A stretch of DNA of 32,649 bases, from the NCBI GenBank assembly GCA_035528575.1, contig DATKYK010000042.1:1-32649 (forward strand), written 5' to 3'. Each line of letters opens with the position of its first letter. Within the stretch, counting starts at the first letter, position 1. The translations under genes were made by a program, and so were the position numbers. A model generated the notes under the pieces. It did no database searches. It was not told the DNA's origin and saw only the letters and a program-made list of their open reading frames with translations. The stretch comes from Dehalococcoidia bacterium. Its GTDB lineage: Bacteria > Chloroflexota > Dehalococcoidia > E44-bin15. Below are positions 8,548 through 20,707 of this stretch, one piece after another.

Positions 8548-9717
8548 ATGAAAAAGCGAAATGTGATCTCCAAAAGGGTGAGGGACATATCGCCATCGGG
8601 GATCAGGAGGTTCTTCGACATCCTGGCCTCGCTGGAGGGGGTCATCTCCCTGGGCGTCGGCGAGCCTGACTTCGTCACCCCCTGGCACATCCGCGAGTCG
8701 GGGATATACTCACTGGAGCAGGGATATACCTCCTACACCTCTAACTACGGTCTGCTGGAGCTGCGGGAGGAGATCGCCCGCTATCTAAATGGCCGCTACG
8801 GGCTGGTCTACGACCCCCAAAAGGAGATACTAATCACCGTGGGCGTCAGCGAGGGGCTTGACCTGGCGATGCGTGCTGTCATCGACCCCGGGGATGAGGT
8901 TATCGGCCACCAGCCGAGCTATGTATCCTACATGCCCTGCGCCATGCTGGCCGGGGGGAGGTTCGTCCCGGTTCCCACCTATGTCGAGAACGAGTTCAAG
9001 GTAAGCGCGGACGATATCGAGAAGCGGGTTACCCCCAGAACCAAGGCACTCATGCTGGGCTACCCCAGCAACCCCACCGGCGGGGTGATGGACCGCGCCG
9101 GACTAAAAAAGGTGGCAGATGTTGCCCAGCGACACGACCTTATAGTGATCTCAGATGAGGTCTACGAGCGACTGGTTTACGGGGTAGAGCACACCTGCTT
9201 CGCCTCCCTGCCCGGAATGCAGGAGCGCACCATTCACCTCGGCGGCTTCTCCAAGGCGTATGCCATGACCGGCTGGCGCATCGGGTATGCCGCGGCACGG
9301 GAGGCTATCATCGAGGCTATGATGAAGATTCACCAGTACACCATTCTATGCGCCCCGATAATGGCCCAGAAGGCGGCGATCGAGGCGCTCCGCGGTGGGG
9401 AGCCCCAGGTCGAGGAGATGGTTGCGGAGTATGACCAGCGCCGCCGAGTAATGGTCGAAGGATTCAACAGCATAGGGCTTGCCTGCTTCGAGCCACGGGG
9501 GGCGTTCTACGCCTTCCCCTCGATAAAGGGCACCGGGCTTTCATCTGAGGACTTTGCCGAGAGGCTGCTTCTCGAGGGGCATGTGGCCGTGGTCCCCGGC
9601 GATGCCTTCGGCGAGTGCGGCGAGGGCTACGTCCGCTGCTGCTACGCCACATCAATGGAGGAGATCGAGGAGGCACTGGAGCGGATGGGACGCTTCGTCA
9701 GAAGCCACCGCACGTGA
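8548..9717 (+). CDS. PLP-dependent class I/II aminotransferase
   Basis: Fold-type I aminotransferase of 389 aa, similar to AspC/AlaA-type enzymes. The PLP lysine is Lys236 in GGFSKAYAMTGWRIGY. Asp203 in ISDEVYERL binds the pyridine nitrogen, Asn175 in YPSNPTGG is conserved, and a C-terminal GYVRCCYA holds the substrate-carboxylate Arg. The N-terminal SLGVGEPDFVTPWHI is the usual substrate-recognition segment. The exact amino donor is not evident. ATG 8548 is preferred over TTG 8521 because AAAGGG lies just upstream. The TGA stop overlaps the ATG of the next gene, suggesting coupling with the PP-loop ATPases. Confidence 0.93.
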   Translation: MKKRNVISKRVRDISPSGIRRFFDILASLEGVISLGVGEPDFVTPWHIRESGIYSLEQGYTSYTSNYGLLELREEIARYLNGRYGLVYDPQKEILITVGVSEGLDLAMRAVIDPGDEVIGHQPSYVSYMPCAMLAGGRFVPVPTYVENEFKVSADDIEKRVTPRTKALMLGYPSNPTGGVMDRAGLKKVADVAQRHDLIVISDEVYERLVYGVEHTCFASLPGMQERTIHLGGFSKAYAMTGWRIGYAAAREAIIEAMMKIHQYTILCAPIMAQKAAIEALRGGEPQVEEMVAEYDQRRRVMVEGFNSIGLACFEPRGAFYAFPSIKGTGLSSEDFAERLLLEGHVAVVPGDAFGECGEGYVRCCYATSMEEIEEALERMGRFVRSHRT

Positions 9718-10397
9718 TGAACCGAGGGCTAAAGGTTGCCGTATCGTGGAGCGGTGGCAAGGACAGCGCACTTTCGCTCTTCCGCGCTATCAGGAGCGGT
9801 CTCCACATCCACTGCCTCTTGAACCTCATCAACCGCGATGCCTCAAGGAGCATGTCCCATGGCCTTGACCCAAGGTTGATAGCGGCCCAGGCCGAGGCCC
9901 TTGAGATACCCATCGTGCAGCGGAAAACCACGTGGGAGACATACGAGGATGAGTTCAAGCGGGCGGTAGTGGATCTGAAGCAGCACGGGGTAAGCGCAGT
10001 GGTATTCGGAGACATCGACGCCGGCATCGAGGAGCATAGGGACTGGATAGAGCGGGTCTCGGCTGAGCTTGAGGTGAGGCCCATATCGCCGCTGGGGGGC
10101 GGTACGCCGCAAGGGCTCCTCACCGAGTTTATCGACGCCGGCTTCGAGGCGATCGTGGTGTGTGCCAAGGCGGAGCTCTTCGGCGAAGAGTGGCTCGGCC
10201 GGAAGATGGATGAGGGTTTTATACAAGAGCTTCAGAGTAAAGATTTCCACCCCTGCGGGGAGATGGGGGAGTACCATACCCTTGTCACCAACGGCCCCAT
10301 CTTCAAGCGGCGGATAGATATAATCGATAGCGAGAAGGTGTTAAGGGAGGGATACCGGTTTCTGGATATCTCCTCTTTCGCCCTTTCACCACGATGA
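9717..10397 (+). CDS. PP-loop ATP-pyrophosphatase, diphthine-ammonia ligase-like (DUF71), copy 1
   Basis: A 226-aa adenine-nucleotide alpha-hydrolase of the Dph6/DUF71 family. The PP-loop SGGKDS sits in VAVSWSGGKDSALSLFRA at the N-terminus. A conserved NAVVFGD-like segment (SAVVFGDIDAGIEEHRDW), the PLGG segment and GEMGEYHTLVTNGPIFK near the end are family hallmarks. In archaea and eukaryotes this family makes diphthamide on EF2. Bacteria lack that modification, so the bacterial substrate is unknown. ATG 9717 overlaps the aminotransferase stop (TGATG). A much longer open frame starting at 9615 is an out-of-frame extension over the aminotransferase and is rejected. Confidence 0.88.
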   Translation: MNRGLKVAVSWSGGKDSALSLFRAIRSGLHIHCLLNLINRDASRSMSHGLDPRLIAAQAEALEIPIVQRKTTWETYEDEFKRAVVDLKQHGVSAVVFGDIDAGIEEHRDWIERVSAELEVRPISPLGGGTPQGLLTEFIDAGFEAIVVCAKAELFGEEWLGRKMDEGFIQELQSKDFHPCGEMGEYHTLVTNGPIFKRRIDIIDSEKVLREGYRFLDISSFALSPR

Positions 10398-11053
10398 TGC
10401 GCGAAAAAGTACTGCTCTCATGGAGCGGGGGCAAGGACAGCGCGCTGGCCCTCCACGCGATCAGCCAGGACCAGCGATATGAAATCGTGGGTCTGCTTAC
10501 CACGGTAACCGAGGACTATCACCGCATCAGCATGCACGGCGTGCGGGAAGCCTTACTGGAACAGCAAGCCGGCGCCATAGGTCTGCCCATCTCCAAGGTG
10601 TTAATATCTAAAAATGGCTCCTACGAGGAATATGAATCTCAAATGAAAGAGGTGCTACTCCAGTTTCAGCAATCGGGCGTTAATGCCGTGGTGTTTGGCG
10701 ATATATTCCTGGAAGACATCAGGAAATACCGCGAGGAGAACCTGGCAAGGGTAGGGATGAAAGGCGTTTTCCCCCTCTGGGGAAAAGATAATCTCCCACA
10801 AGCGTTTATCGATTCTGGCTTCAAGGCTATCGTCACCTGTGTTGATACGAAAGCTCTGGATAAAAAATTTGTGGGGAGATTGTTCGATGGAGAGTTCCTG
10901 GCTGAACTGCCGGCCATCGTCGATCCCAATGGAGAAAACGGCGAGTTCCACTCCTTTGTATACGAAGGACCCATATTCCGGAAAAAGATATCATATAGAA
11001 TCGGCGAGGTGGTCAAAAGGGATTCGTTTTACTACTGTGATCTAGAGCCGTGA
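10394..11053 (+). CDS. PP-loop ATP-pyrophosphatase, diphthine-ammonia ligase-like (DUF71), copy 2
   Basis: A 219-aa paralogue of the preceding gene. The PP-loop is LLSWSGGKDSALALHA, followed by RISMHGVREALLEQQA, NAVVFGDIFLEDIRKYRE, FPLWGKD and GENGEFHSFVYEGPIF. Its middle region is closer to the widespread bacterial form of the family, whereas copy 1 has NRDASRSMSHGLDPRL in the equivalent place. The two may therefore recognise different substrates or form a heteromer. ATG 10394 overlaps the stop of copy 1 (ATGA), so translation is probably coupled. Predicted cytoplasmic. Chemistry (ATP to AMP plus PPi, amide formation) is inferred from the fold only. Confidence 0.88.
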   Translation: MMREKVLLSWSGGKDSALALHAISQDQRYEIVGLLTTVTEDYHRISMHGVREALLEQQAGAIGLPISKVLISKNGSYEEYESQMKEVLLQFQQSGVNAVVFGDIFLEDIRKYREENLARVGMKGVFPLWGKDNLPQAFIDSGFKAIVTCVDTKALDKKFVGRLFDGEFLAELPAIVDPNGENGEFHSFVYEGPIFRKKISYRIGEVVKRDSFYYCDLEP

Positions 11054-12860: not shown

Positions 12861-13246
12861 TCTGCCTCCTCAATCGTAGAAGTTTAACACAAACGGAGGT
12901 CAGGGACAAGCTGACGTACTCGTCCAGTACACTGGTGGCATATCACCGTTCACCAGCTTTTACCCGTCATTGCGAGGACCCCGATTTATCGGGGGACGTG
13001 GCAATCTCCGGGTTAGTATGCCAATGTGGGGATTGCCGTGCCCCGACCCCGATATAGGCCGAAGTGTCGGCCGACCTGTCGACCTCGGGGGACAATTCGG
13101 CCTAACTTGGGGCTCGCAATGATGAGTGAAACGAAACCCACGATACCGGGTATCAACTATCTATCTGAACGAGATCACCTGACCCTCACTTGAACATCGC
13201 TGACTATTACGCTATGCTATACTGTGGCCCAGTCAAGGGGGTGATA
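12861..13246. other. Intergenic region between divergent trpS and the first carbonic anhydrase gene
   Basis: No gene is supported here. The stretch must contain both promoters. Most of it is the large palindromic repeat at 12967-13122. Open frames across it give compositionally biased translations. Confidence 0.5.
12967..13122. repeat. Long nested palindromic intergenic repeat
   Basis: The outer arms TCATTGCGAG (12967-12976) and CTCGCAATGA (13113-13122) are perfect complements. Inside, GTGGCAATCTCC (12998-13009) pairs with GGGGATTGCCGTG (13028-13040), and further GC-rich hairpins such as GGCCGAAGTGTCGGCC lie at about 13058-13073. This is the pattern of dispersed REP/ERIC-like elements with the CGTCATTGCGAG signature. 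No other full copy was seen in the window. Confidence 0.65.
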
Positions 13247-13753
13247 GTGATAAAATCCTTCAGGGGAAATACTCCCAAGATACATGAGACGGCGTTTGTC
13301 AGCAAAGAAGCATACATAGTGGGAGATGTGGAGATAGGCGAAGGCTCGGGCATATGGCCGGGGACGGTTATAAGGGGCGATAGCGCAAAAATAACAATAG
13401 GGAAAAACACCCAGATCGAGGACAACTGCACGGTGCACAGCGGCGTGCCGATGACCATAGGCGAAAATGTGCTCATCGGGCACAATGTGGTAGTGCACTG
13501 CGCCCGTATAGGCGACAACGTGCTCGTGGGAAACAACGCCACACTGCTGGACAATGCGGAGATAGGTAGCTATTGCATTGTGGGCGCCAACGCGCTGGTC
13601 AATATGGGCATGAAGATCCCGGAGAGGACATTCGCCATCGGCGTGCCCGCCAGGATCAAGGGCGAGGTTCCTCAGGAGAGGACTGACATAATTAGTCTAG
13701 CGTTGCTCTTTAACATAGTGCTGGCCAAAGAATACAAAGAGCACGGACTCTAA
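13247..13753 (+). CDS. Gamma-carbonic anhydrase family protein, copy 1
   Basis: Left-handed beta-helix (hexapeptide repeat) protein of 168 aa in the CamH/YrdA group. The three Zn-ligand histidines are in place: His64 in TVHSG, His79 in IGHN and His84 in VVVHC. Family function is CO2/bicarbonate interconversion, though many bacterial members have little measured activity. I chose GTG 13247 because AAGGGG lies six bases upstream and because the resulting protein aligns end to end (168 aa each) with the next gene. An upstream TTG at 13190 would add an unrelated extension. The C-terminal helix (about 143-168) is the most divergent part of the pair. Confidence 0.9.
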   Translation: MIKSFRGNTPKIHETAFVSKEAYIVGDVEIGEGSGIWPGTVIRGDSAKITIGKNTQIEDNCTVHSGVPMTIGENVLIGHNVVVHCARIGDNVLVGNNATLLDNAEIGSYCIVGANALVNMGMKIPERTFAIGVPARIKGEVPQERTDIISLALLFNIVLAKEYKEHGL

Positions 13754-13769: not shown

Positions 13770-14276
13770 ATGATAAGGACCTTTAACGGTAAGACACCGA
13801 AGATACACCAGACAGCATTTATAAGTGAAGCGGCCTATGTAGTCGGGGATGTGGAGATAGGCGAGAACTCCAGTGTCTGGCCGGGGACAGTGATCCGGGG
13901 AGACCACGCCCCGATAGTTATCGGCAAGAACACCCAGATCGAGGACAACGGCCTTGTGCACACCGGAACTCCGATGTCTATCGGCGATAACGTACACATC
14001 GGGCATAACGTCGTAGTCCACTGCAGCCGCATCGGGGACACCACGCTAATCGGCAACCACGCCACCCTATCGGAGTATGCCGAGATAGGAGATTTCTGCG
14101 TAGTCGGTGCCGGCGCGCTGGTAACACCGGGGATGAAGGTACCCGACCGCACCTTCGTGGTCGGCGTGCCCGCCAAAGCCAAAGGTGAGGTGTCAGAGGA
14201 TAGGATCGCTATCACCAGGCAGAGCGTAGAGATCTATATAAAGATGTCGAGGGAATACAAAGAACAGGGACTATAA
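13770..14276 (+). CDS. Gamma-carbonic anhydrase family protein, copy 2
   Basis: Tandem paralogue of the preceding gene, also 168 aa, starting MIRTFNGKTPKIHQTAF at ATG 13770, 16 bases after the stop of copy 1. Zn-ligand positions His64 (LVHTG), His79 (IGHN) and His84 (VVVHC) are conserved. It has GNHATLSEY where copy 1 has GNNATLLDN. Hexapeptide repeats (VGDVEIGENSSVWPGTVIRG and onward) run through about residue 135, then a C-terminal helix ends EYKEQGL. The pair could form a mixed trimer. The ribosome site is weak, so translation may depend on coupling to copy 1. A MITE-like element starts five bases after the stop. Confidence 0.91.
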   Translation: MIRTFNGKTPKIHQTAFISEAAYVVGDVEIGENSSVWPGTVIRGDHAPIVIGKNTQIEDNGLVHTGTPMSIGDNVHIGHNVVVHCSRIGDTTLIGNHATLSEYAEIGDFCVVGAGALVTPGMKVPDRTFVVGVPAKAKGEVSEDRIAITRQSVEIYIKMSREYKEQGL

Positions 14277-15356: not shown

Positions 15357-15991
15357 ATATCCAATATTACTATATCAGACATTTCATCATATTGTGCAGT
15401 CTAGAGGTCAGTCAGGTTGGTGAGAGAAGAAAGGGTGAGTTATTTTTATCAGGATACCAATAATCGCTGATTAACCTTTATTGAGTAAGGTCTCAGCTTT
15501 ACGAGGTGAAACACTCTTTATTTTGCTGGCTCATCCACTTAGACTCAAATGCCCACTTTTATATGACTCGCTGTTTCTTTCTCTCTTCAATTTTTAACTA
15601 TACTTCGATTCAGAGGCCTATGATTACAACACGCGCAGACACTTTAGTTGGTTAGGTTTGCTTTGTCAAGAATTTCAGTTGACAATCTGATGGTTTGTTA
15701 ATGTTACCTGGTGCTTATATCGCCCCAATGCAACACTTATTGACAATGAGAGAGCTGCGGAGTACTATACTCGCACGCGACACACGACTGCCAATCACCT
15801 GAAGCGTGAAGCTAAGAACCTAATGTATGATTTTGAGAAAGGCAAACCGTGAGCAATCGCGGGGCACAAAGCTACAGGTCCTATTATAAAAGAATATACA
15901 GGATGGCTGGGTTGCCAAAGACCAATCCTTCTTAAGTCTTTCTGGGGTGAGAAAGGCTTTTGTTCGCCTGAGGTAAGGAGGGCTAGTACAA
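15357..15991. other. AT-rich gap before the redox cassette, possible gene remnant
   Basis: No intact gene is supported. An open stretch on the plus strand, ending at the TGA near 15851, translates to NERAAEYYTRTRHTTANHL then KREAKNLMYDFEKGKP. It has no start codon and no upstream continuation, so it may be the tail of a lost gene. About 40 bases just after the terminator (to about 15400) also resemble the sequences following the two other SDR-tail copies. Confidence 0.4.
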
Positions 15992-16123
15992 ATGAAGACA
16001 AAATCAGTCAGTGTTGCTGTGGTGTCGTTCACGCTCCTCGTAGTCACCATCACCGCTGGTTGTTATGTGAAGCCCCCGTTAGGATACCTGGCAGCAGCCG
16101 CCTGCTTGTCACCGAAGTATTAG
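15992..16123 (+). CDS. Small putative lipoprotein (43 aa)
   Basis: The frame opens at ATG 15992, ten bases after a clear AAGGAGG (15975-15981), and ends at TAG 16121-16123. The peptide has a basic start (MKTKSVSV), a hydrophobic core (AVVSFTLLVVTIT) and the sequence TAGC, a good lipobox with Cys24 as lipid site. The remaining 19 residues are short and non-polar (YVKPPLGYLAAAACLSPKY). No family is recognised. It lies 37 bases upstream of the Fe-S fusion gene and may share its transcript. The combination of ribosome site and complete lipoprotein signal makes chance unlikely, but the mature part is very short, so it could also be a truncated lipoprotein. Confidence 0.55.
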   Translation: MKTKSVSVAVVSFTLLVVTITAGCYVKPPLGYLAAAACLSPKY

Positions 16124-16160
16124 AGGAAACAAGGGGCCCGACTGAGTCACGGATGGTCAC

Positions 16161-18209
16161 ATGAATGATATTCCACCTATATGGGTTATGGAGCCATCAG
16201 CAAGCGGGAAGAGGCGTCAGTTTTCAGAGACCCTGATAGGTAAAGATAGTCAGCCCGACTTGAAAGCTATCAAATCGCGCTTGAGTGAAATCCGCGAGTA
16301 CTCTCTGCGTGAGCACGGGTCGCTCTTGGAAAAATTTAGGGATAACATAACAAGGTGTCCGGGCATACAATTTAAATCAGCATATGATGCTGAGGAGGCT
16401 GCGGACTATATCAAGGAAGTTGCTCGCGGGACAGAGAACATAATAGTAAATAGGTCGAGCCTCGTCATGAATGAGCTAAAGCCGAGATTGGAGAGGCGTG
16501 GTTTCCGTGTTGATGAGCCATACTATAGCGAGTTCGACTGTTTCGAGAGCAGGATAAGGGATTATTGGGACCTTCCGAATCTGCTAGGGAAGGGCCTCGT
16601 AATGAATTTCGAGGTCTCTAACAACTCAACAGACCTGTGTCTGCCGCCTGGCCATGGAAAAACGGTAAAGGATTGCGTCGCTGTGCTAGGCGTAAATGCA
16701 GCCTCCGGGGAAGACGGCTCCATATTCTTCCTACAGCACATGTCCAACATATCCAAGAGCCTGGAGCAAGCCGGACAGGTTATACTTATCATCGGGCTCA
16801 ACAAAGTAGTGAAGGACAAAGAGGAGGCAGATTTTCAGACAAGGTGTATGGGAATATTTGGTATGGAAGGCATGCTCCTGAACCTCAGGCCAAGGCAAGC
16901 TGAGCCCGTTGATATAGATAGCCTGCCAGGTTTCCCGGTACTTGAAGACAGGTCGATGCACATCATCCTCCTCGATAACGGTAGAAGCAGAATCTTAGGG
17001 AGCAGCTTCAGAGAGCTACTTCTCTGTATTGGTTGCAAGGCATGTATTAAGCAGTGCCCCATTAGTCGCTTTATGAGCCAGAACGGCGCTATCTGGAGCC
17101 CCGAAGACTACCTGTTCATGTTCCTTTTAGGCGAGAATCGATCGATGGATACATGCCTTCACTGTGAGGCATGTCGTGTTGAATGTCCTTTAGACATTGA
17201 TATCCCGAAGTTGATGTGGATGGCTCAGGCCGATCATGCTGCCAAGCATGGACGAACCCTCCGTGACCGCGTGCTTGGGAATCCCGAATTGCTTGCCAGA
17301 GCCGGGAGCATGGCCTCCCCTGTTTCCAATGTCGTCACGAACATCGAGCCGGGCAAGACGATAATCGAGGAGGCTTTAGGCCTGGACAGAAAGAGGAGAC
17401 TGCCCAGCTTTCGCCGCGAGACCTTCAAGGGGTGGTTCGCAAAGAGGGATGGTGGAAACGGGGAAGCAAGCCCTGGCAGGAAGGTAGCCTATTATGTCGG
17501 GTGTTTTGCCAATCACTACGATCCTGGGGTGGCCAAGGCTTTAGTCAATGTCTTGGAGAGAAATGGATTTGAGGTTGTGGTTCCTGACCAGAAGTGCTGT
17601 GGCATGCCAATGATTGCCAGTAAAAATATGAGCGGTGCTCGCAAGAATGCAACGTATAACATCGAATCTCTGGCTGCAGTGGCGGCAGAGGGGTATGACA
17701 TCATTACCACCTGCCCCAGTTGCAGCTTGATGATAAAGCGAGAATATCTGAATTTATATAACAGCGATGAGGCGAAGCTGGTCTCGGAGCACTTACATTA
17801 TGTGGACGAGTACTTGGTGTTGCTGCATAGGCAGGGCGCCTTGAATACGGACCTGGCTGAGATTTCCGAATCGATATTCTACCATGCCCCCTGCCACTTG
17901 AAGGTCCAGGACATGGTGGGAGACTCCCTTGAACTGCTGTGCCTGATACCGGGGTTGTCGATAGAGAAAGTTAACACCACTTGCTGTGGGATGGCTGGAT
18001 ACCATGGCTATAAGAAGGCGCATTCCGGTCTATCTATGGAGATCGGCGCCAGATTGTTCCAGGAGAGCGATCTGCTGGCCCGGACAGGCAAAGTGGCAAC
18101 AAGCTGCGGGGCATGTAAGTTGCAAATAGAAGCGGGTACCGGGGCTCAGGTGATACACCCTATTGTATTATTGCAGGAAGCGTATGGCATCGGGCGTTAT
18201 GCATTATGA
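16161..18209 (+). CDS. LUD-domain / [4Fe-4S] / double-CCG fusion oxidoreductase (LutB-HdrD-like)
   Basis: A 682-aa predicted cytoplasmic electron-transfer protein. Residues about 70-275 resemble the LUD (LutB) domain. A bacterial-ferredoxin pair follows: CxxCxxCxxxCP at Cys289/292/295/299 and Cys332/335/338/342. Two cysteine-rich CCG domains complete it: Cys448, CysCys479-480 and Cys518/521, then Cys578, CysCys608-609 and Cys649/652. In HdrB/HdrD, CCG domains bind non-cubane clusters that reduce disulfides. In LutA/GlpC-like proteins they serve lactate or glycerol-3-phosphate oxidation. This order equals a LutB fused to a LutA/HdrD module. It begins at ATG 16161 (weak ribosome site; an in-frame stop lies just upstream). 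With the AOR-family enzyme and ferredoxin downstream it probably shuttles electrons for that enzyme; the acceptor is unknown. Confidence 0.85.
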   Translation: MNDIPPIWVMEPSASGKRRQFSETLIGKDSQPDLKAIKSRLSEIREYSLREHGSLLEKFRDNITRCPGIQFKSAYDAEEAADYIKEVARGTENIIVNRSSLVMNELKPRLERRGFRVDEPYYSEFDCFESRIRDYWDLPNLLGKGLVMNFEVSNNSTDLCLPPGHGKTVKDCVAVLGVNAASGEDGSIFFLQHMSNISKSLEQAGQVILIIGLNKVVKDKEEADFQTRCMGIFGMEGMLLNLRPRQAEPVDIDSLPGFPVLEDRSMHIILLDNGRSRILGSSFRELLLCIGCKACIKQCPISRFMSQNGAIWSPEDYLFMFLLGENRSMDTCLHCEACRVECPLDIDIPKLMWMAQADHAAKHGRTLRDRVLGNPELLARAGSMASPVSNVVTNIEPGKTIIEEALGLDRKRRLPSFRRETFKGWFAKRDGGNGEASPGRKVAYYVGCFANHYDPGVAKALVNVLERNGFEVVVPDQKCCGMPMIASKNMSGARKNATYNIESLAAVAAEGYDIITTCPSCSLMIKREYLNLYNSDEAKLVSEHLHYVDEYLVLLHRQGALNTDLAEISESIFYHAPCHLKVQDMVGDSLELLCLIPGLSIEKVNTTCCGMAGYHGYKKAHSGLSMEIGARLFQESDLLARTGKVATSCGACKLQIEAGTGAQVIHPIVLLQEAYGIGRYAL

Positions 18210-18304
18210 TGTGCTATATTATGGTCTGATGTGTAAGAATCGTAGGTGACGAACTCCGGGTCGTCCCGAAATCTCCAGGAGGCTCAAGAACGTAGGAGGG
18301 TAGA

Positions 18305-20191
18305 ATGCAAGAACGGAAGATAGCCTACATTGATCTGTCAACAGGAGAGGTTAGAAAAGAGCTGATTCCGCATAAGATGCGGGAAATGTATCTCGGTGGC
18401 AGAGGCATAGATATGTATCTGCTATACAATCATATTTCACCTGGCATCGATCCGTTGGGTCCCGAAAACGTGCTGGCAGTCAGCGCAGGTCTACTCGTAG
18501 GCACCCTGGCTCCATCCAGTGGAAGATGTGATCTGGCGGCTAAGTCTCCGCTAACAGGCTTTATAGGCAACAGTAATATGGGAGGCTTTTTCGCTCCTGA
18601 GCTCAGGTTTGCTGGATTCGATCATCTGGTGATCAAGGGGAAGGCCGAAAAGCCCGTTTATCTCTGGATACATGATGGGGAGATCCAGATTCGAGATGCC
18701 GCTCACCTCTGGGGGAAGGACACCAGTGAAACCCCTGCCATTATCAGAACAGAGCATGGAGACGAAGACATAAAGGTAATGTGTATCGGCGAGGCGGGAG
18801 AAAACCTGGTCAGGTTCGCCATCATCCTCGGCGGGATTAAGAACAGCGGGGGCCGAACGGGGTTGGGCTGTGTCATGGGCTCGAAGAAACTGAAAGCCAT
18901 TGCCGTCAGAGGTACTCAGGGTTTGGCCATCACGTATAGCGAGGAGGCTCTGGGGTATCTTGATTATCTTATGGGGCTAATAAGGGATAACTCGGTGTTT
19001 AAAGAATTCTCCAAATGGGGCACCCCAATGTTCCACAGCTCATCGGACTTGGTGGGCCGGATAAGGAACAGAAACTTCCAGCTCAATAAGGTTCCCAACG
19101 GCGAGGTTTTGTATGCTGAGAACCTGGGCAAATACTCGATAGGGATGGCTGCCTGCTTCGGTTGTCCGATCCACTGTCGCCATAGATACGTGGTACCGGA
19201 AGGGCCTGGCAAGGGTAGCTACGTTGAAGGTCCAGAATGGAGTACGCTGTCTGCCCTGACCGCAGAGGTTGATTGCATAAGAATGGAAGCTGCCCTCGTT
19301 GGCAACTACCTGGTCAATAAGTATGGTATCGACTCCCTGGAGTTTGGCAGCATGGTCTCTTGGGCAATGGAGCTCTATGAGAAAGGGATCATCGATGACA
19401 AGGTTACCGAAGGTCTGAGGCTGGAGTGGGGCAACGAGGAAGCGATGTACGAAATGGTGCGCAGGATTGCCAAAAGGGAGGGAGTACTGGGAGACATATT
19501 GGCTGATGGGCCCCTTAGAGCTATAGAGAAGCTAGGGGAGGAATCACGCTACTACAACCTCCACATAAAGGGCATGAGTTGTCTACACACGGATGAGAGG
19601 CCTACTCCTAGCCATGCATTGGGCATAGCTACATCTACCAGGGGCGCTGATCACCTGAGAAGTCGCCCTGGTGTGGATGCTCACCTGTTGCCCCCAGAGA
19701 CCAGGGACAAGTTGTTCGGCTTCCCCACGCCTGACATGGTCTCCTATGAAGGGAGTGCTAAGCTGGTCTGGTGGCATGAGCTTATATACGCTATTTCAGA
19801 CGCCCTGGGGACGTGTAAGTTCCAGCCTCTTCTCATGAGTCCCTCCATTTTCGGTTACGATGACTATTGCAAGCTGACTCACTACATCACAGGCCTTGAT
19901 CTGTCAGTGTCAGAGATGATGGAGATAGGGGAAAGAATCTATACTCTGGAAAGGATGTTTAATAATCGAGAAGGGGGGTCGAGGGAAGACGATACCCTGC
20001 CTGAGCGTTACTTTGTAGAGCCGACCCCTGCTGGTATTCCCGGCTTCAAGGATAAGACCATAGACAGGGAGAAGTTTAACCAGTTGCTAGACGAGTACTA
20101 TGAGGCACATGGCTGGGATAAGGATGGGGTGCCCATGGCAGAGACGTTGGCAAGGTTGGGCTTGGATAATGAGCCTTCCCACGTAATTTAG
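18305..20191 (+). CDS. Aldehyde ferredoxin oxidoreductase family tungstoenzyme
   Basis: A 628-aa member of the AOR family (AOR, FOR, WOR, BamB, YdhV), normal length. N-terminal KIAYIDLSTGEVRKE and YLGGRGIDMYLLY match the pyranopterin-binding N-domain. The [4Fe-4S] ligands are Cys284, Cys287 and Cys291 (CFGCPIHC) plus Cys504 in DALGTCKF, as in Pyrococcus AOR. GGRTGLGCVMGSKKLKAIAV is also conserved. Family chemistry is reversible aldehyde-to-carboxylate oxidation, or aromatic-ring reduction in the BamB branch; which applies is not decidable here. A strong TAGGAGGG precedes ATG 18305. The next gene encodes a four-cluster ferredoxin like AorA/YdhY/BamC, so a two-subunit enzyme is expected, with the upstream Fe-S fusion as electron partner. 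Tungsten use is inferred from the family. Confidence 0.93.
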   Translation: MQERKIAYIDLSTGEVRKELIPHKMREMYLGGRGIDMYLLYNHISPGIDPLGPENVLAVSAGLLVGTLAPSSGRCDLAAKSPLTGFIGNSNMGGFFAPELRFAGFDHLVIKGKAEKPVYLWIHDGEIQIRDAAHLWGKDTSETPAIIRTEHGDEDIKVMCIGEAGENLVRFAIILGGIKNSGGRTGLGCVMGSKKLKAIAVRGTQGLAITYSEEALGYLDYLMGLIRDNSVFKEFSKWGTPMFHSSSDLVGRIRNRNFQLNKVPNGEVLYAENLGKYSIGMAACFGCPIHCRHRYVVPEGPGKGSYVEGPEWSTLSALTAEVDCIRMEAALVGNYLVNKYGIDSLEFGSMVSWAMELYEKGIIDDKVTEGLRLEWGNEEAMYEMVRRIAKREGVLGDILADGPLRAIEKLGEESRYYNLHIKGMSCLHTDERPTPSHALGIATSTRGADHLRSRPGVDAHLLPPETRDKLFGFPTPDMVSYEGSAKLVWWHELIYAISDALGTCKFQPLLMSPSIFGYDDYCKLTHYITGLDLSVSEMMEIGERIYTLERMFNNREGGSREDDTLPERYFVEPTPAGIPGFKDKTIDREKFNQLLDEYYEAHGWDKDGVPMAETLARLGLDNEPSHVI

Positions 20192-20224
20192 CCACGCCGG
20201 CAGTTTGATAGGAGGCAGCAAGCC

Positions 20225-20707
20225 ATGATGAAGATGCTGATTGTGGACCACTCTAAGTGTACTGGCTGTAGGCTATGTGAGGTAGTCTGCTCGGCCAAGA
20301 AGAACGGGGCGGTAAACCCTACCAAGGCAAGGATCACCGTCATCAGATGGGAATCTATTTGCGTTGATACCCCAATGCTGTGCCAGCAGTGTGAGTCGGC
20401 ACCCTGTATGGCCGTGTGTCCGGTAGTAGCTCTGGCTAGAGATGAAGACATAGGGAGGGTGACTATAAATTATGACCTTTGTATCGGGTGCAAGTTTTGC
20501 GTGGCGGCTTGTCCCTTTGGCACTATGAAGTTCGATCCTGTTGCCAGGAAGGTGATTAAGTGCGATCTCTGTGATGGCGACCCGACATGCGTCAAGTTCT
20601 GCGAAACAAAAGCGCTACGATATGTGGATGCCAGCACTGTGAACATAGCAAAGATGAGAGAGGCAGCAGAAAAGCTCTCTGAGCTGATCAGGAAGTCTGC
20701 TGCTTGA
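20225..20707 (+). CDS. Four-cluster ferredoxin subunit (AorA/YdhY/BamC-like)
   Basis: A 160-aa iron-sulfur protein with 16 cysteines in four blocks: CTGCRLCEVVC, CQQCESAPCMAVCP, CIGCKFCVAACP and CDLCDGDPTCVKFC. This is the DMSO-reductase-type electron-transfer subunit pattern, predicted to bind four [4Fe-4S] clusters. No signal peptide or Tat motif is present, so it should be cytoplasmic. ATG 20225 lies nine bases after GGAGG, and the gene starts 33 bases after the AOR stop, in one transcript. In AorAB and BamBC enzymes this subunit links the tungsten subunit to the electron acceptor, and the same role is inferred here. An SDR-tail remnant with a terminator follows and may end the transcript. 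Confidence 0.92.
   Translation: MMKMLIVDHSKCTGCRLCEVVCSAKKNGAVNPTKARITVIRWESICVDTPMLCQQCESAPCMAVCPVVALARDEDIGRVTINYDLCIGCKFCVAACPFGTMKFDPVARKVIKCDLCDGDPTCVKFCETKALRYVDASTVNIAKMREAAEKLSELIRKSAA

Follow-up and report, generated by a model that had tools for sequence, protein, structure and literature searches.

The window, a 32,649-nucleotide stretch of contig DATKYK010000042.1 from a Dehalococcoidia bacterium, carries a three-gene operon encoding a LutB-LutA-type fusion protein (LUD-CCG), an AOR-family catalytic subunit and a four-cluster ferredoxin. The three reading frames were confirmed at the positions given by the original prediction. The AOR and ferredoxin genes each have an AGGAGG-type ribosome-binding site before them, and the two intergenic gaps measure 95 and 33 bases. 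The genes, with the domains of the first protein, are as follows (window coordinates).

16161-18209, forward strand: LutB-LutA-type fusion gene, 682 amino acids, with LUD, two [4Fe-4S] sites and two CCG domains
16161-17000, forward strand: N-terminal LUD-like domain, approximately residues 1-280 (Pfam LUD below cut-off; hhalign to YkgF; Foldseek to LutB and 2g40)
17025-17186, forward strand: two CxxCxxCxxxCP [4Fe-4S] motifs, Cys 289-299 and 332-342 (motif reading; Pfam Fer4_8)
17502-17723, forward strand: first CCG domain motif, residues 448-521 (Pfam and motif)
17892-18116, forward strand: second CCG domain motif, residues 578-652 (Pfam and motif)
18305-20191, forward strand: AOR-family catalytic subunit gene (WorL-like), 628 amino acids, of a clade with Ser/Thr replacing Glu313
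20225-20707, forward strand: four-cluster ferredoxin gene (WorS/AorA-like), 160 amino acids, with 16 cluster cysteines and no evident signal for twin-arginine translocation (Tat)

The LUD-CCG protein and its linkage to AOR genes

The CCG half of the fusion protein is clear. Pfam finds two copies of the domain (1.3e-20), each with the full C-x(n)-CCG-x(n)-C-x2-C motif, as in the CCG proteins HdrB/D and LutA. The LUD domain is fainter: it is not detected by a Pfam search of the full 682-residue protein, and the N-terminal 280 residues searched alone give 21.6 bits (E 2e-4), slightly below the cut-off of 22.6. The family profile nevertheless aligns with E. coli YkgF (LutB) in hhalign (Prob 99.6, E 4.7e-24) across the LUD and cluster regions. 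The top folds in the PDB retrieved by Foldseek with an AlphaFold2 model are LutB (9a6l_B, E 6.5e-16), LutA (9a6l_A, TMt 0.83) and HdrB, with the LUD structure 2g40 as a lower-ranked match. Homology to LutB is thus supported by profile comparison and predicted fold. The predicted fusion of LUD, two [4Fe-4S] sites and two complete CCG domains stands, with the LUD part backed by hhalign and Foldseek; in the domain searches proposed with it, CCG, AFOR_N and AFOR_C were recovered and LUD stayed under its cut-off even for the N-terminal part.

The protein has the LUD domain, paired clusters and sequence similarity of a LutB, but it scores far below the equivalog cut-offs of LdhH (NF045670, 204 bits against 800) and LutB (TIGR00273, 88 against 445). 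The LutB motif LDNGR is retained between the LUD-like domain and the clusters, and the TNEGNxR (EGNxR) stretch is altered to LQHxSNI (QHxSNI) in the AOR-linked family, as aligned to YkgF by hhalign. LutAB and LdhH share the LUD, two [4Fe-4S] and two CCG elements in identical order, together with the LutB and LutA folds; in contrast to them, the window protein is AOR-linked and of separate lineage. In a maximum-likelihood tree, a 100/100 branch present in all (100%) bootstraps separates the AOR-linked LUD regions from YkgF and eight controls of the window's class, although the AOR-linked set was picked by similarity to the window family and not by AOR linkage, and some of its compactness is to be expected. 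The LUD-CCG protein is a lineage of its own, apart from canonical LutB and LdhH. Its C-terminal 390 residues also resemble GlpC and HdrD-type CCG proteins, exceeding the NF008369 (GlpC) cut-off at 349 against 278. Unlike GlpC, the protein falls short of the stricter TIGR03379, lacks an adjoining GlpA or GlpB gene and carries the extra LUD domain.

Relatives were all found in genomes or metagenome-assembled genomes (MAGs), some with up to 9% contamination. A scan of the genome collection found 13 in Chloroflexi/Dehalococcoidia, Deltaproteobacteria, Syntrophorhabdaceae and Syntrophobacterales MAGs. Profile searches with the LUD half (E <= 1e-40) gave matches in 14 of the 393 genomes from the window's class and 4 of the 400 from its phylum, in 10 of 46 from the Syntrophorhabdaceae-type class and in 11 of 395 from the phylum to which genome G394 belongs. 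The profile search did not find the LUD half in any of 13 further genomes from the window's own family, so the gene was likely acquired horizontally by this organism. An AOR gene lies within 3 kb of LUD-CCG in 30 of the 36 loci examined, in Chloroflexota and Desulfobacterota-type genomes. Among the six others, three end at contig edges (L077, L086 and L124) and L087 adjoins a broken AOR gene, leaving L045 and L079 as the only true AOR-less loci. By comparison, no AOR gene is found near any of eight canonical LUD loci (LdhH-like fusions and LutB) from the window's class. Because the neighbours are shared by most relatives and absent from these controls, the predicted coupling of an AOR to a LutB-LutA or HdrD-like module is well supported as a genomic fact, and the suspicion that the neighbours might differ in all relatives was not borne out. 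The fusion itself does not define the group, since the LUD and CCG halves are separate genes in 24 of the 36 loci and fused in 12; it is a local feature that is not required for the AOR association.

The LUD and AOR trees disagree in several places. L052 and L055 have sister LUD regions and AORs of different clades, and the C-terminal half of both is a different, HdrD-like CCG region. The LUD of L076 joins the L047 set and its AOR does not, and L133 has an AOR inside the window clade and a LUD that groups with L134. These disagreements suggest that LUD-CCG is an exchangeable module that has been swapped between AOR clades.

The AOR subunit and its active site

The second protein is unambiguously an AOR-family subunit, as predicted, with AFOR_N (3e-78) and AFOR_C (1.5e-108) domains in Pfam and the four cluster cysteines of WorL proteins. 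Among solved structures, P. furiosus AOR is the closest to it (1e-114). In a tree of 53 rows it is one of 24 members of a clade with 100/100 support, separate from P. furiosus AOR (1AOR), AorB (8C0Z), 9MQX, WOR83, BamB and YdhV. The references for AOR, AorB, 9MQX, WOR83 and BamB were PDB rows transcribed from printed alignments and that for YdhV came from E. coli; FOR, GAPOR and WOR5 were not among the rows. The phylogenetic placement called for by the original prediction thus yields a distinct clade. The window's genome (G000, 2.3 Mb) has nine full-length AOR-family genes, including a close pair (L091 and L092) and two of the YdhV group (L095 and L096); the eight other than the window gene all lie outside its clade.

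Four residues are associated with aldehyde oxidation in AOR: Thr243, Glu313, Tyr427 and His448 (PMC12096430; PMC13328260). BamB and YdhV lack this set but have an extra Cys ligand (same sources). Alignment of 56 clade members to P. furiosus AOR, whose numbering is used for the counts, identifies the following positions in the window protein.

19154-19177, forward strand: CxxCxxxC of the AOR [4Fe-4S] cluster, C284, C287 and C291, with the fourth ligand C504 at 19814-19816; invariant in the clade
19241-19243, forward strand: Ser313, at the catalytic Glu313 of P. furiosus AOR (alignment of 56 members)
19265-19267, forward strand: Glu321, invariant in the clade and Asn in P. furiosus AOR (alignment)
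19586-19591, forward strand: His428-Thr429, at Ala426-Tyr427 of P. furiosus AOR (motif LH[ST]DER)
19652-19654, forward strand: His450, the retained equivalent of His448 (alignment)

Across the clade, Glu313 is replaced by Thr (48/56) or Ser (8/56) and Tyr427 by Ser (46/56) or Thr (10/56). Glu occupies the Asn321 position and Arg the Tyr452 position in every member, His replaces Ala426 in 55 of 56, and Arg182 gives way to Asn (49/56) or Asp (7/56). Thr243, Glu311, His448, Asn93, Arg76 and the four cluster cysteines are retained. The window protein itself has Thr240 and His450, with Ser313 for Glu313 and Thr429 for Tyr427, and so keeps only part of the aldehyde-oxidation set. Since six other AORs of the same genome keep both Glu313 and His448, the loss is specific. 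The column of the BamB/YdhV Cys ligand (Tyr312; Cys322 in BamB) holds Trp or Tyr in 56 of 56 and never Cys, and on this ground and that of the tree membership of the BamB or YdhV groups was rejected. Judged by its residues, the clade fits neither the aldehyde-oxidising nor the BamB/YdhV pattern. The original prediction had envisaged aldehyde or acid redox chemistry, which becomes doubtful with both Glu313 and Tyr427 replaced in all 56 members.

AORs of other clades also occur with LUD-CCG. Those of L055, L083 and L134 retain Glu313 and His448. Those of L080 (8743-10800), L081 (8603-10528) and L082 (3949-5925) have Cys at the BamB/YdhV ligand column and lie near BamB in the tree; they are a possible second non-aldehyde AOR group using the module.

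The third protein is the AorA-like ferredoxin that had been predicted to follow the AOR gene. It has 16 cluster cysteines plus C46, in keeping with the four [4Fe-4S] clusters of class II WorS, and its best PDB matches are 9mqx_E and AorA (8c0z_C). No Tat motif was seen by eye at its start, MMKMLIVDHSKC, where no dedicated signal predictor was run.

Surroundings of the clade and of the operon

The AOR clade turned up in 22 of the 393 genomes from the window's class, and in 36 of 257 from another phylum, in searches at E <= 1e-180 that include some weaker outliers. Across the 56 loci, LUD or CCG genes lie near 24, a ferredoxin near 41 and a small four-Cys protein near 42. A strict, obligate partnership of the clade with LUD-CCG was rejected, the module being missing from the other 32.

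The small protein (84-108 amino acids) is encoded directly upstream of the AOR gene in its 42 loci, for example L044 (4052-4378), L046 (2037-2297), L050 (7216-7494) and 39 others, and follows the pattern RCxN..C..R...KCPxCxxEWRI.W..P.FPR[IV][RK]GPVW. It matches no Pfam family at cut-off, its AlphaFold2 model (predicted local distance difference test score, pLDDT, 66.5) has no significant Foldseek match, and a search of the window's genome did not find it (best E 0.014). It probably represents a subunit or a maturation factor that has yet to be described.

Cassettes in Desulfobacterota-type genomes often lie among genes of aromatic catabolism. A true bamB (1014 bits to 4z3w) is found near L044, a neighbour at L127 groups with BamB in the tree, and L213 has a phenylphosphate carboxylase beta subunit above cut-off and a CoA ligase nearby. 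PaaK-like ligases occur near the cassette in four such loci and IclR regulators in 11, and L224 has a PadI-like 2-oxoacid oxidoreductase subunit (430 bits, below cut-off). No aromatic-catabolism genes are among the neighbours of the window operon, and extending this link to the window's organism would be a guess. A protein of about 435-449 amino acids with a weak Radical_SAM match is another repeated neighbour of the cassette in Desulfobacterota-type genomes, at L202 (5096-6445), L051 (7549-8865), L054 (10685-11992) and L121 (11304-12623); the two copies searched, L051 and L202, received no NCBIfam name.

In the window, the LUD-CCG gene lies 5′ of the WorL gene and a convergent ABC permease gene 3′ of the WorS gene. 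Other neighbours encode a short-chain dehydrogenase/reductase (SDR), hexapeptide proteins and an ABC transporter. A small lipoprotein gene had been suggested to precede the unit.

15992-16123, forward strand: 43-amino-acid open reading frame with lipobox-like TAGC, unconserved and probably outside the unit

In tblastn against all fetched loci this frame matches only itself, and it was discarded as a member. The long gap before the operon contains a degenerate reading frame (15700-15850, forward strand, with ...YRPNATLIDNERAAEYYTRTRHTTANHLKREAKNLMYDFEKGKP), by eye perhaps a remnant of a mobile element. Tandem paralogues occur twice further upstream: Dph6/diphthine-ammonia-ligase-like genes (9615-10397 and 10394-11053), here in a bacterial genome, and hexapeptide-repeat transferase genes (13190-13753 and 13770-14276) upstream of the SDR gene.

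Candidate reactions and place in the WOR family

A cytoplasmic tungsten-type oxidoreductase consisting of a WorL of an uncharacterised clade, WorS and a dedicated LutB-LutA-type electron-transfer protein is the preferred reading of the operon, poised evenly between right and wrong. The three proteins would form one complex, with tungsten presumably favoured over molybdenum. Electrons would travel, in a direction that may be either, between the metallopterin and [4Fe-4S] cluster of WorL, the four WorS clusters, the two [4Fe-4S] clusters in the LUD half and both CCG sites. At the CCG end they would be handed to an acceptor or taken from a donor; the analogy with HdrB/D, GlpC and LdhH makes menaquinone or a thiol/disulfide the most likely partner. 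Two prenyltransferases of the genome have MenA as best match, below cut-off. Flavin-based bifurcation is unlikely within the operon because no flavin subunit is encoded there. At the active site Glu321 or His428 may have assumed the acid/base role, or the reaction may differ. The substrate of WorLS is possibly not an aldehyde: as the site lacks Glu313 and Tyr427 of the aldehyde-oxidising AORs, a carboxylate, acyl-CoA or aromatic compound is more likely than a simple aldehyde.

Several points weigh against this reading. Gene adjacency is no proof of a complex, the AlphaFold2 model of LUD-CCG is only moderate (pLDDT 68.5), and the operon has no membrane subunit gene. The 32 clade loci without LUD-CCG nearby make the module optional, and the enzyme must work with another partner there. 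GAPOR oxidises an aldehyde without the usual Tyr/His region (PMC12096430), a precedent by which second-shell loss alone does not exclude aldehydes, and Glu321 could substitute.

A bolder form of the preferred reading, put forward tentatively, is that the clade represents a third type of active site among the tungsten AOR/WOR enzymes (Ser/Thr313, Glu321, His448 and no Cys ligand), catalyses a non-aldehyde reaction, perhaps with an aromatic acid or acyl-CoA as substrate, and with its exchangeable LutB-LutA conduit constitutes a sixth WOR subunit class. It is rather unlikely that the enzyme is an ordinary aldehyde oxidoreductase, which would oxidise aromatic or other aldehydes (or reduce acids) with Glu321 and His448 as acid/base pair while LUD-CCG merely relays electrons. 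Retention of Thr243, Glu311, His448 and all cofactor ligands and the closeness to P. furiosus AOR agree with it, as does the description of all characterised AOR/WOR clades without the Cys ligand as variations of an aldehyde-oxidising enzyme (PMC12096430), but the invariable replacement of Glu313, Tyr427, Tyr452 and Arg182 and the canonical Glu313/His448 in six AORs of the same genome speak against it. A reductive aromatic-ring or aryl-CoA reductase, in which LUD-CCG would feed electrons to the tungsten site as BamD-I do for BamB, is more doubtful. The aromatic-catabolism genes around Desulfobacterota-type members (L044, L127, L213, the PaaK-like ligases and IclR) and the BamB-like, Cys-bearing AORs linked to LUD-CCG at L080, L081 and L082 are in its favour; the window clade itself lacks the Cys322 ligand, and the operon has neither flavin bifurcation subunits of HdrA or NuoF type nor aromatic-pathway neighbours. 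That LUD-CCG acts like LutAB/LdhH as a dehydrogenase of lactate or another 2-hydroxyacid and merely shares an operon with the AOR is highly improbable despite the identical domain order and closest folds, given its low NF045670 and TIGR00273 scores, separate lineage, changed EGNxR stretch, AOR linkage in 30 of 36 loci and the lack of an adjoining LutC-type gene.

The preferred complex, with LUD-CCG as electron-transfer partner, has partial counterparts among known systems. A survey of 4,064 WorL neighbourhoods defines five WOR classes by their subunits (Putumbaka et al. 2026, PMC13328260). Class II WorLS is alike in its AFOR_N/C WorL and four-[4Fe-4S] WorS, to which the window operon adds a LutBA module. 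WorN of class III and WorABC or the Bam subunits (BamDEFGHI) of class IV are not beside the window WorLS, and the operon is without the Tat (judged by eye) or membrane parts of class V. The main text of the survey names no LutBA-type partner and does not use the terms LUD, CCG or heterodisulfide, a statement that does not extend to its supplements. By gene content the operon fits none of the five classes, in agreement with the prediction that pairing LutB-LutA or HdrD modules with AOR is not a textbook arrangement.

Aromatoleum AorABC (8C0Z) and A. mobile WOR1 are alike in the four-cluster ferredoxin (nearest 9mqx_E and AorA), but their AorC/WorABC flavoprotein is replaced in the window by the iron-sulfur LutBA protein, and the AOR clade and active site differ. 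Class II benzoyl-CoA reductase BamBCDE likewise combines an AOR-family subunit, a ferredoxin and a CCG-type electron carrier, and bam genes lie beside the relatives L044 and L127, whereas the window AOR is outside the BamB clade without the Cys ligand, and its operon has no HdrA-like flavoprotein. Literature searches returned nothing relevant on AOR with a LUD domain, LutB or Syntrophorhabdus, and those on AOR with phenylphosphate carboxylase only aromatic-degradation papers on BamB and benzene. Each part is of a familiar kind; what appears to be undescribed is their combination, together with the pattern of active-site residues.

According to the survey (PMC13328260), a physiological role has been defined for only five of the 92 WOR clades, and apart from benzoyl-CoA reduction every known WOR activity is linked to aldehydes. 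Against this background the operon suggests a kind of tungsten enzyme complex not described before and adds a subunit type that the main text of the class scheme does not name. The clade comprises at least 56 sequences whose second shell is different and invariant, and it offers a simple test of whether Glu313 is necessary for AOR chemistry. Its hosts are uncultured Dehalococcoidia and Desulfobacterota-type genomes with aromatic-catabolism genes, where few roles have been assigned to tungsten enzymes. The linkage also suggests that the poorly understood LutAB proteins may be a general electron-transfer module, with uses beyond lactate enzymes.

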